From positions 1-64,000 of the forward strand of contig NZ_VWRN01000003.1 in assembly GCF_008632125.1 (NCBI RefSeq): DNA of 64,000 nt. The letters are read 5' to 3'. The notes under the pieces are model-generated. The model searched no databases, had not been told where the DNA came from, and saw only the letters and a list, made by a program, of their open reading frames with translations. How positions within the stretch are numbered: position 1 is the first letter of the stretch; each line of letters starts with the position of its first letter. Shown here one piece after another: positions 56,077-64,000 of this stretch. A program made the position numbers and the translations under genes. This DNA is from Cupriavidus cauae. Lineage in GTDB: Bacteria; Pseudomonadota; Gammaproteobacteria; Burkholderiales; Burkholderiaceae.

Positions 56077-57075
56077 ATGAATACAGCGGTCATGTTGGGA
56101 GGAACGGGGCAGGACAGTATCCACGCAGAGATGCAGTCCGCCGCCGCGATGTGCAGGGAGGTCATTGTTGAGCAGGCTGGCGCACTTCATGCGCTGGCCG
56201 ATACGCTGGGTCAGGAGGTCGATACCGCCATCGACCTGATCCTGCGTTGCCGTGGCCGCGTCATCATCAGCGGCATGGGCAAGTCCGGGCTGGTCGGCCG
56301 CAAGATGGCCGCGACCTTCAGCTCGACGGGCACACCCAGCTATTTCCTGCATCCCGGCGAAGCACTGCATGGCGACCTGGGCGTGATCCGCCACGACGAC
56401 ATCGTGGTGCTGATCTCCAACAGCGGAGAAACCGAGGAAATCCTGCGCCTGCTGCCCTCGCTGCAGGACTTCGGCAACGCCATCATCGGCATCAGCGGCC
56501 GCCACGACAGCACGCTGGCCCGGCACAGCACCGTCTTCCTGCACCTGCCGATGGAGCGCGAGGTATGCCCGAACAACCTGGCGCCGACCACCTCGACGCT
56601 GCTGACCATGGCATTGGGCGACGCGCTGGCCGTCACGCTGATCAAGCGGCGCGGCTTCAAGCCGCTGGACTTTGCCCGCTTCCATCCGGGCGGCAGCCTG
56701 GGCCGCAAGCTGCTGACGCGCGTGCGCGACGTCATGCACAAGCGGGTGCCCGTGGTCGCGCCCGATGCCCCGCTGCGCGAGGCCATCGATGCGATGACCA
56801 GCGGACGGCTCGGACTTGCGGTTGTCCTGAATAACGGCGAACTCGCCGGCATCTTTACCGACGGCGACCTGCGTCGCGCGATCGAGCGGGATGCCACGGC
56901 GCTGAGCCACCCGGTGGGCGACTTCATGACGGCCACCCCCATCACCATCCAAGCGGATGCGCGTCTTTCGGACGCAGAGGACCTGATGCGCGAGCGCAAT
57001 GTGCGCGCACTGGTCGTGCTCGATGCCGACGAACAGGTTGCAGGCGTACTGGACATCTTCGACAACCTGCAATGA
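56077..57075 (+). CDS. kpsF: KpsF/KdsD arabinose-5-phosphate isomerase
   Basis: This 332-aa enzyme converts ribulose-5-phosphate to arabinose-5-phosphate for KDO synthesis. The SIS domain (about 50-185: VIISGMGKSGLVGRKMAATFSSTGTPSYFLHPGEALHGDLG, VLISNSGETEE) is followed by two CBS domains (about 220-330: DVMHKRVPVVAPDAPLREAIDAM, GIFTDGDLRRAIE). It is first in the capsule operon and its stop overlaps kpsM (ATGA). As part of the capsule operon it supplies KDO for the glycolipid anchor, alongside any housekeeping kdsD. Confidence 0.95.
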   Translation: MNTAVMLGGTGQDSIHAEMQSAAAMCREVIVEQAGALHALADTLGQEVDTAIDLILRCRGRVIISGMGKSGLVGRKMAATFSSTGTPSYFLHPGEALHGDLGVIRHDDIVVLISNSGETEEILRLLPSLQDFGNAIIGISGRHDSTLARHSTVFLHLPMEREVCPNNLAPTTSTLLTMALGDALAVTLIKRRGFKPLDFARFHPGGSLGRKLLTRVRDVMHKRVPVVAPDAPLREAIDAMTSGRLGLAVVLNNGELAGIFTDGDLRRAIERDATALSHPVGDFMTATPITIQADARLSDAEDLMRERNVRALVVLDADEQVAGVLDIFDNLQ

Positions 57076-57866
57076 GTTCGGCGCGCGTTCGCTCGGAGTT
57101 TTCCGTAGCGCTATCGGTTTGGCGCGCGCTTTTCCTGCGCGAGGCCAGCGCGCGCCTGGCCACCGGCCGGGCCGCGTGGATGTGGATTCTGCTTGAACCG
57201 GCCGTACATCTGGTCTTTCTGATGGTGTTGTTCGGCGTGATCCGGCATCGGGTGATGGCTGGGGGGGTTAATACAGAAGTTTTCATCCTGGTTGGCGTCT
57301 GGGGCTTCTTTCTGGTGCGTAACGTTGCCCGCCGCGGCATGGAAGCCGTCAATGCGAACGCGGCGCTGTTTGCCTACCGGCAGGTGAGGCCCGTCGATAC
57401 CGTGCTGGTCCGGGCCGCGCTCGAAGCGTTTCTCTACGCCATCGTCTGGTTCGCACTGCTCGGCGGGCTGGCGCTGTTTGGCATTGACGTCGGCCCGGCC
57501 GACCCGATCCAGGTCATGGTCGCCGCGGTACTGCTGTGGCAGCTGGGCCTCGGCATGGCGCTGGTCTTCTCGGTGGTGGGCGCGCTGTTGCCCGAAGCCG
57601 GCAAGATCGTGAAGCTGGCCTTTACGCCGCTCTATTTCCTATCCGCGGTGATGTATCCGATCGGCAGCGTGCCGCGTCCCTTGCGCGACTGGCTGCTGCT
57701 CAATCCCATCGTGCATGGTCTCGAATCGATGCGCGGCGGCTACTTCGCGGGCTACCACGGCGAAACCCATATCAGCCTGGCCTACCTGGGCTTCGTCGTG
57801 CTCGCCCTGCTGTTTCTCGGCCTGGCCTTGCATGCCCGCTTTGCGCGACGGCTGGTGGCGCAATGA
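57072..57866 (+). CDS. kpsM: Capsule polysaccharide ABC exporter permease KpsM
   Basis: This 264-aa inner-membrane permease has six hydrophobic segments and belongs to the ABC-2 family. GRAAWMWILLEPAVHLVFLMVLFGV, TEVFILVGVWGFFLVRN and FTPLYFLSAVMYPIGSVPRPLRDWLLLNPIVHGLESMRGGYF are KpsM/BexB features. It is coupled by ATGA overlaps to both neighbours and exports the finished capsule chain with KpsT. Confidence 0.95.
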   Translation: MSSARVRSEFSVALSVWRALFLREASARLATGRAAWMWILLEPAVHLVFLMVLFGVIRHRVMAGGVNTEVFILVGVWGFFLVRNVARRGMEAVNANAALFAYRQVRPVDTVLVRAALEAFLYAIVWFALLGGLALFGIDVGPADPIQVMVAAVLLWQLGLGMALVFSVVGALLPEAGKIVKLAFTPLYFLSAVMYPIGSVPRPLRDWLLLNPIVHGLESMRGGYFAGYHGETHISLAYLGFVVLALLFLGLALHARFARRLVAQ

Positions 57867-58525
57867 TCCGGGTCAACGACGTCTACAAGCGCTACCGCAA
57901 CCATCACGGATCGCAGTGGGTGCTCAAGGGGATCTCCGTCGATATTCCGGCGCAGGCCCGTATTGCATTGATCGGCGCCAATGGCGCCGGCAAATCGACG
58001 CTGCTGCGGCTGATCGGCGGCATCGACCAGCCCAATCGCGGCTCGATTCAGCGCAATTGTCGCGTGTCCTGGCCGCTGGGATTGACCGGTGGTTTCCAGG
58101 GCTCGCTCAGCGGCCGGCAGAACGCTAAATTCGTTGCCCGCATCCACGGCGCGCATCAACATCTTGAAGAGACGCTGGAATTCGTTCGCGACTTTTCCGA
58201 ACTCGGGGAAGCGTTCGACGATCCCGTCAAAACCTATTCCTCCGGCATGCGTTCGCGCCTCGCGTTCGCCATGTCGATGGCATTCCATTTCGATACCTAT
58301 CTGGTCGACGAACTGACTGCAGTAGGCGATGCCGCCTTCAAGCGGAAATCGCAGAAGGCCTTCCGGGACCTCGCCGGCCGCGCCGGTCTGGTGATGGTCT
58401 CGCACAGCGAATCGACGCTGCGCAACTTCTGCGATTCCGCGATCTGGCTGCACGACGGCCACGCTCACTGGTTCGATACCGTCGACGAGGCGCTGGCCCG
58501 CTACCGCGAAAGCATTCAAGCATGA
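57863..58525 (+). CDS. kpsT: Capsule polysaccharide ABC exporter ATPase KpsT
   Basis: This 220-aa ATPase has Walker A GANGAGKS (38-45), signature YSSGMRSRLAFAMSM, Walker B TYLVDELTAVGD and the switch His in MVSHSES. The diverged YSSGM signature is typical of the KpsT/Wzt group. It has no carbohydrate-binding C-terminal domain, consistent with group 2-type capsules. The frame is open upstream into kpsM, but the ATG at 57863 overlaps the kpsM stop. Confidence 0.95.
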   Translation: MIRVNDVYKRYRNHHGSQWVLKGISVDIPAQARIALIGANGAGKSTLLRLIGGIDQPNRGSIQRNCRVSWPLGLTGGFQGSLSGRQNAKFVARIHGAHQHLEETLEFVRDFSELGEAFDDPVKTYSSGMRSRLAFAMSMAFHFDTYLVDELTAVGDAAFKRKSQKAFRDLAGRAGLVMVSHSESTLRNFCDSAIWLHDGHAHWFDTVDEALARYRESIQA

Positions 58526-63132: not shown

Positions 63133-63208
63133 TCTGAATCGCTACAGAAAAATGGCTTGCTCCAGACGAGACGTGGTAGACCCGTATCAAGTATACCGAT
63201 AACCCGTT

Positions 63209-64000
63209 ATGCAACAATCATCGAAAAGCTTTCTTAGTCAGGCTATCGCCGACTTTAACAGCAAGAACTATAAAAGCGCTCTCGATCTATTCGAGAAAGC
63301 AGGCGCGGTTTATGGATCCCATATCGTCAGCGCCAATATCGAGCTTTGCAGAAAATTGTTGAGCGCCGCTTTGCCTTCGGAGAGTGCTAGAAAAGGTGAG
63401 CCGGCACTCGACCCTGCAACACTCCTTATGTTGCACAACTCGGGCGACGCGAAGATCGGTGCTGCGAGGCTAAATAAAGTTCTGCAGCAGTATCGTGCGG
63501 CGGTCGCAACAAAATCTATTGACGCGAAAATTAAGCCCGTCAATCCGATTCCGTCAGACTGGCCTTCCGAGTTGTTGCTCCAGCCATTACCGGAAAGCAC
63601 TAACGACTATCGTTGGATGATGCAACGGAAAGTTGGCGTAAAAGAAAATAAGCTGGCCGCCCTCAGCATAGTTATACCTACGTACAATCGAAGTGCCATT
63701 CTCGACGTCACTTTGGCCTGCCTAGTAAACCAGGAAGGGTCATATCCTTTCGAAGTTATCGTTGCGGATGATGGAAGCCGCGAGCAGATTGTGGACGTTG
63801 TCAAACGATATGAGGATAGACTCGATATTCGATATGTCCGTCAAAAGGATTATGGGTATCAACTATGTGCGGTGCGAAATTTAGGGCTGCGAACTGCACG
63901 GTACCCCTTTATCGCAATCCTCGATTGCGATATGGCGCCAAACAAAAATTGGGTAGCAAGCTATGTAAATCATCTTCTCGAGAATGACGATGTAGCATTG
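63209..64000 (+). CDS. Glycosaminoglycan synthase of the KfoC/HyaD type, 5' part
   Basis: 264 residues are visible; the gene runs off the window. The N-terminus (FLSQAIADFNSKNYKSALDLFEKAG), the segment PIPSDWPSELLLQPLPESTNDY and the GT2 core LSIVIPTYNRSAILDVTLACLVNQ, FEVIVADDGS, IRYVRQKDYGYQLCAVRNLGLR and LDCDMAPN match, to my memory, E. coli K4 chondroitin polymerase KfoC and Pasteurella pmCS/HyaD almost word for word. The DCD metal motif falls at 239-241, the same position as in KfoC. Such enzymes carry two GT2 domains (hexosamine and glucuronate transfer), so the second should lie beyond the window. Low GC, like the preceding gene. Confidence 0.88.
   Translation, partial: MQQSSKSFLSQAIADFNSKNYKSALDLFEKAGAVYGSHIVSANIELCRKLLSAALPSESARKGEPALDPATLLMLHNSGDAKIGAARLNKVLQQYRAAVATKSIDAKIKPVNPIPSDWPSELLLQPLPESTNDYRWMMQRKVGVKENKLAALSIVIPTYNRSAILDVTLACLVNQEGSYPFEVIVADDGSREQIVDVVKRYEDRLDIRYVRQKDYGYQLCAVRNLGLRTARYPFIAILDCDMAPNKNWVASYVNHLLENDDVAL

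Follow-up and report, generated by a model that had tools for sequence, protein, structure and literature searches.

Gene content of the capsule locus

The window considered here, positions 1 to 64,000 of contig C21 of Cupriavidus cauae (NZ_VWRN01000003.1; 105,541 bases, numbered as in the window, in a genome of 5.75 Mb and 74 contigs), ends inside a locus that, judged by its sequence, is a complete KfoC-type capsule locus served by an ABC transporter (group 2). To judge from its predicted enzymes, the locus probably makes a group 2 capsule with a backbone of chondroitin, [GlcA-GalNAc]n, in which glucuronic acid (GlcA) alternates with N-acetylgalactosamine (GalNAc); chondroitin is a sugar polymer found in animal cartilage. 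Because the window cuts the synthase gene after residue 264, the analysis was continued along contig C21. Twelve genes follow one another on the plus strand (Table 1) in the order kpsF, kpsM, kpsT, kpsE, kpsD, a KfoB/HyaE-like gene, the synthase, a pyruvyl-transferase-family gene, UDP-glucose dehydrogenase (UGD), a KfoG-like GT2 gene, kpsC and kpsS, every one of them open and full length, with four-base overlaps at kpsF/kpsM, kpsM/kpsT and kpsT/kpsE; beyond kpsS, on the opposite strand, lie dctD, dctB and dctA (named from their sequences). A previous reading of the window made from its letters alone (the sequence-only reading) had placed kpsFMTED, a HyaE-like gene and a synthase in this order, and all of them lie where it had put them. 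The genes kpsMTED are accompanied by kpsC and kpsS, the set that marks a group 2 (ABC transporter-dependent) capsule, with some NCBIfam equivalog cut-offs missed (KpsS 388 of 600, KpsE 273 of 438 and UGD 641 of 757 bits) and those of broader models exceeded (TIGR00393 for KpsF, TIGR03026 for nucleotide sugar dehydrogenase, and Pfam PF05159, PF01061 and PF00535).

Synthase and sugar supply

The synthase has two tandem GT2 domains (PF00535 in two stretches, 190 bits), each with an acidic motif: DCD at residues 239-241, exactly as the sequence-only reading had stated, and DSDD at 519, in the second domain, which that reading had expected and which is present on the contig beyond the window. Its best relative of solved structure is the E. 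coli chondroitin synthase KfoC (2z86; E = 5.4e-291, 970 bits, residues 67-681; 66% identity over 618 columns), which bears out the previously noted match to chondroitin and hyaluronan polymerases; identity to the whole KfoC of an E. coli locus encoding the crystallised protein (L066) is 63% over 681 columns, and reaches 68% and 71% in the two domains. The next solved match (3bcv, E = 7e-17) covers one domain. A heparosan synthase (KfiA/KfiC, PmHS) was considered and rejected: heparosan synthase B matches one domain only, with an E-value of 1.2e-10 versus 5.4e-291 for KfoC. By these matches the protein is a member of the KfoC, or class II glycosaminoglycan (GAG), synthase family, predicted to transfer GlcA and a hexosamine in alternation. 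An AlphaFold model from seven alignment rows was poor (mean pLDDT 50) and was not used.

The UGD expected near the synthase is present as the second gene downstream of it (69% identical to the UGD of L066). Of the three outcomes that the sequence-only reading had named as damaging (a single GT2 domain, no UGD nearby, an unrelated GT2 enzyme as best match), none was seen. The UDP-N-acetylglucosamine (UDP-GlcNAc) 4-epimerase (KfoA) that had been hoped for is not in the locus, none being found among the frames read in 50-81 kb; the enzyme predicted to make UDP-GalNAc is a GalE on another contig. This best GalE of the genome (contig C38; 438 bits, cut-off 262) carries Cys300 where E. coli GalE has Tyr299 (Tyr in 1udc and Cys in 1lrk); according to PMC5349592, this residue governs whether the enzyme takes one substrate or two, and with Y299C the E. 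coli enzyme takes both. Epimerases inside other KfoC loci have Ser (L005, L022, L023) or Cys (L009, L011) at the same position, in all five that were read. The GalE of contig C38, having a small residue there, is the predicted source of UDP-GalNAc. In L066, the locus epimerase gene (5858-6876) is annotated as frameshifted.

Table 1. Genes of the C. cauae capsule locus on contig C21
Gene or product	Coordinates	Strand	Evidence or remark
kpsF, arabinose-5-phosphate isomerase family (supply of 3-deoxy-D-manno-octulosonic acid, Kdo)	56077..57075	+	TIGR00393 353 bits, cut-off 204
kpsM, ABC transporter membrane protein	57072..57866	+	PF01061 over cut-off; 37-41% identity to homologues of L005, L007, L022, L023
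kpsT, ABC transporter ATPase	57863..58525	+	51-54% identity to homologues of L005, L007, L022, L023
kpsE, export inner-membrane protein	58522..59613	+	TIGR01010 273 bits, below cut-off 437.5
kpsD, export protein, SLBB and Poly_export domains	59616..61445	+	PF22461, PF02563, PF10531 over cut-off
KfoB/HyaE-like, 528 aa	61546..63132	+	29-34% identity to KfoB-like proteins of L005, L010, L011, L022, L023, L066
KfoC-like synthase, 684 aa	63209..65263 (window part ends at 64000)	+	Profile, structure-database and alignment matches
Pyruvyl-transferase-family gene	65326-66447	+	On contig C21 outside the window
UGD	66558-67727	+	TIGR03026 332 bits, cut-off 190; outside the window
KfoG-like GT2	67681-69222 (start uncertain)	+	Outside the window
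kpsC	69200-71308	+	Outside the window
kpsS	71312-72754	+	Outside the window

Chondroitin, hyaluronan or another polymer

KfoC adds GalNAc with its N-terminal domain and GlcA with its C-terminal domain, according to PMC7764085. The hexosamine specificity of the C. cauae enzyme was approached with 15 comparison rows (8 named loci, 2 E. coli loci and 5 places in Pasteurellaceae), among which L010 and L026 represent one gene and L005 is almost identical to L022. FSGGN and WGGEDNEF are found in 15 of the 16 rows, C. cauae included. The exception is L027, which belongs to a genome of the Avibacterium family and reads FAAGN and WGGEDVEF there, with NGFQASAARN where the other rows have (Y/N)GYQLCA(V/I/T)RN (YGYQLCAVRN in C. 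cauae). Its locus has KfoB-, KfoC-, UGD- and KfoG-like genes between kps genes, the layout also of the P. multocida hyaluronan locus, and L027 is presumed to be of the hyaluronan type. A characterised chondroitin synthase of Avibacterium paragallinarum, the species of L010, is known from a title cited in PMC7934428, and PMC8617651 mentions A. paragallinarum alongside P. multocida type F. A site was counted as discriminating when L027 departs from a residue common to KfoC and L010. The hexosamine domain has 42 such sites; the C. cauae protein agrees with KfoC and L010 at 31, with L027 at 4 and with neither at 7, a pattern that fits GalNAc transfer by the N-terminal domain. Eleven other homologues side with the KfoC/L010 pair at 17 of the 42 sites, and the C. 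cauae protein does so at 15 of those 17. The polymer of chondroitin or hyaluronan type proposed by the sequence-only reading is supported, the residues leaning to chondroitin.

A hyaluronan capsule, produced by the same locus and mechanism but with GlcNAc transferred by the N-terminal domain, and therefore with no need of an epimerase, is unlikely. The lack of an epimerase gene in the locus speaks for it, as do the membership of hyaluronan- and chondroitin-type enzymes in one family and the 4 sites shared with L027, but the three motifs are as in KfoC and the Avibacterium homologue and unlike those of L027, 31 of the 42 sites go with chondroitin, and identity over the hyaluronan domain is 61.9% to L027 versus 68.3% to KfoC and 71.9% to L010.

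Other points besides the missing epimerase weigh against chondroitin. The hyaluronan type of L027 is presumed; 4 of the 42 hexosamine-domain sites match L027 and 7 match neither side; at 11 sites of the GlcA domain, 3 match the chondroitin pair, 4 match L027 and 4 match neither; and the chondroitin-like residues may simply be ancestral. A plain chondroitin reading also leaves the pyruvyl-transferase-family gene unaccounted for. Sequence is, moreover, no strict guide to specificity, since KfoC also accepts UDP-galactose when UDP-GalNAc is missing, and some UDP-GlcNAc (PMC7764085). The acceptance of UDP-galactose (PMC7764085), together with the long branch and uncertain place of the C. cauae synthase in a tree of 14 rows, leaves some room for another uronic-acid polymer, made by a KfoC-family enzyme whose preference has shifted to some other hexose or hexosamine such as galactose; this is very improbable given the identities of 68% and 71% to the KfoC domains and the invariant motifs. 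The lyase family PF02278 has no match in the C. cauae genome, nor in the control genomes, and is therefore uninformative.

KfoB-like, KfoG-like and pyruvyl-transferase-family genes

Six other loci (L005, L011, L022, L023, L054, L066) have homologues of KfoB, KfoC, UGD and KfoG arranged in the order seen in C. cauae. The KfoB-like protein has an alpha/beta N-terminal domain, a coiled coil and two C-terminal SYRLG stretches (alignment A1), which are conserved in the homologues of L005, L010 and L011. A Pfam scan of this protein gave nothing over the cut-offs; a profile comparison gives its N-terminal domain a weak likeness to sulfotransferases (E = 0.006), and sulfotransferases head the Foldseek matches of a weak model (mean pLDDT 66, pTM 0.40), the best at E = 0.0013 and none reaching 0.001. 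RefSeq labels the homologue in E. coli ECONIH1 a sulfotransferase family protein. This likeness offers a weak lead as to function. Since the chondroitin of K4 is reported to carry no sulfate, the sulfotransferase-like domain of KfoB may have lost or changed its use. PMC3673904 lists kfoB, kfoD and kfoG as of unknown function. A capsule locus of a congener (G402; L064, 1445-11589) has KfoB-like (38%) and KfoG-like (44%) proteins with no KfoC, alongside another GT2 and a nucleotide sugar dehydrogenase, and hence such helpers are not confined to loci for GAG polymers.

The pyruvyl-transferase-family gene has homologues in L005, L009 and L023 (45-47% identity), and none was found in L006 (only 13 kb), L007, L008, L010, L011, L012, L022, L054 or L066. 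Its identification as kfoD was rejected: the locus with the crystal-identical KfoC lacks a homologue, and in one K4 variant, according to PMC13171598, kfoD lies inside an insertion-sequence element, which was also counted against that label.

Origin and distribution

The G+C content of the five cassette genes is 46.9-51.6%, compared with 53.1% for kpsC, 57.9% for kpsS, 61-66% from kpsF to kpsD and about 70% in the flanks; G+C at third codon positions (GC3) is 0.47-0.52 in the cassette versus 0.85-0.90 in neighbouring genes. The insertion site lies between 55.1 kb of the window and 72.8 kb of the contig (compared loci L050, L061, L062, L063), and on the right its flank is 91-97% identical to that of three congeners. 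In the close congener G409 the site is empty, dctD adjoining the genes that in C. cauae lie to the left of kpsF; in G448, kpsFMTED (96-99%) stands at the same place with a different cassette before kpsC (61%) and kpsS (71%); and in G408, kpsS is 78% and kpsC a distant 43% identical, other genes are present, and the contig stops at this point. Because the site is empty in G409 and differently filled in G448 and G408, the site and the export genes are common to the group, whereas the middle has been exchanged. The cassette was apparently gained horizontally, replacing the middle of a kps locus whose place in the chromosome is fixed.

At E <= 1e-60, the synthase occurs in one of 60 genomes of the genus, that of C. 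cauae itself, and KpsC in 26 of the 60. C. cauae is likewise the sole bearer among 399 genomes sampled from the order and 398 from the phylum, two samples that share genomes, with at most two candidates per genome scored in the latter. These samples miss existing relatives, since a homologue in Comamonas kerstersii, which belongs to the Burkholderiales, turned up in a separate search. Further KfoC relatives are found in Neisseria sp., Oceanisphaera arctica, Thalassotalea mangrovi, Vreelandella lutescens and an Arsukibacterium metagenome-assembled genome, and the C. cauae synthase differs by 34-40% from the relatives compared. The KfoC-like genes of A. paragallinarum (L010/L026) and Arsukibacterium (L012) contain an in-frame stop. 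In the Avibacterium family the synthase occurs in five of 140 genomes; KfoC-type DNA is matched by 69 of 5,426 complete genomes of E. coli, by 64 of them over 80% of it; and no entry of a plasmid collection matches as much as 80% of the synthase in one place. For positions 31000-55900 of the window, the 20 plasmid records listed of 154 all come from genera of the Burkholderiales, at 74-82% identity. The "independent source" of such polymers suggested by the sequence-only reading is mistaken in the evolutionary sense: the synthase is of the same KfoC family, and the low G+C content of the cassette, the empty or otherwise filled site in congeners, and the relatives in Comamonas, Neisseria and others argue against independent invention.

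A recently arrived or silent cassette, unexpressed or non-functional in this host, is the least probable alternative; the GC3 difference and the lack of a promoter-like or ops-like site before kpsF would agree with it, the latter a weak point obtained with simple patterns only (positions 55600-56300, 0 promoters found versus 0.4 expected; ops core GGCGGTAG, 4 in the window, a number reached by 9 of 100 shuffles, the nearest to the locus at 52113), but the twelve genes are intact, with overlaps typical of one operon.

Proposed pathway and significance

In the proposed chondroitin pathway, UGD would supply UDP-GlcA and the GalE encoded elsewhere in the genome UDP-GalNAc, while KpsC and KpsS would build the Kdo linker on lipid, a role established for these proteins in group 2 capsules. 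The KfoC-like enzyme would then add single sugars in turn, GalNAc by its N-terminal and GlcA by its C-terminal GT2 domain, and KpsM and KpsT, with KpsE and KpsD, would export the chain. KfoB- and KfoG-like proteins would act as conserved helpers, the pyruvyl-transferase-family enzyme may decorate the chain, and the cassette would have entered the kps locus at its fixed chromosomal site by horizontal transfer. The presence of UGD, kpsC, kpsS and the full export set in one gene run counts in favour of a chondroitin capsule.

Most descriptions of class II GAG synthases concern Pasteurellaceae and E. coli, and the usual interpretation of a GAG capsule is that it imitates animal tissue. We suggest only tentatively that the chain bears a decoration new with respect to K4 and Pasteurella, added by the enzyme of 65326-66447, and that cassettes of this kind pass between bacteria whose habitat is not an animal; if the latter is true, animal mimicry is not their sole use. 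A complete chondroitin-type locus in a high-G+C Burkholderiales genome illustrates how such a capsule can move: the export genes stay conserved and the cassette between them is swapped. Its 684-residue synthase is offered for GAG synthesis in vitro and for testing the residues that choose between GalNAc and GlcNAc. Literature searches on Burkholderiales and Comamonas gave no paper, and neither the titles and abstract beginnings of papers on Cupriavidus nor the matches listed in a further search report such a locus.

Comparison with known systems

The K4-type E. coli locus (PDB 2z86, 2z87; L066), the KfoC of which is 100% identical to 2z86 (618 of 618 residues), shares with C. cauae the kps export genes and homologues of KfoB, KfoC, UGD (KfoF) and KfoG in the same order (32%, 63%, 69% and 41% identity). 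It differs in having a 4-epimerase gene before kfoB, where C. cauae has none, and other genes between kfoC and UGD, where C. cauae has the pyruvyl-transferase-family gene; the fructose gene kfoE is among the K4 genes in that gap, according to PMC3673904. In C. cauae, unlike in the K4-type locus, the synthesis genes are flanked left and right by kps genes that all point the same way. The loci of E. coli ECONIH1 (L023) and Escherichia whittamii (L005) have KfoB, KfoC, the pyruvyl-transferase-family gene, UGD and KfoG in identical order, with 63% identity for the synthase and 45-46% for the pyruvyl-transferase-family protein; unlike in C. cauae, an epimerase gene precedes kfoB, and kpsC and kpsS are on the other strand. 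ECONIH1 is not K4 itself, its KfoC being 75-76% identical to 2z86.

The hyaluronan and chondroitin synthases of Pasteurella cap loci (L024, L025, L027, L054) are 60-64% identical to that of C. cauae, and L054 has KfoB-, KfoC-, UGD- and KfoG-like genes in the same order; three of the Pasteurella-type synthases have 954-964 residues with a C-terminal extension, whereas that of C. cauae resembles KfoC in length. Identities of 60-64% are also found with the Comamonas, Neisseria, Oceanisphaera, Thalassotalea, Vreelandella and Arsukibacterium synthases, whose accessory genes differ: UGD lies inside the stretch compared in five of the six, Vreelandella being the exception, and the pyruvyl-transferase-family gene is found only in Vreelandella. 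The C. cauae locus is of a type already known, and what is new is its host, its arrangement and its possible decoration.

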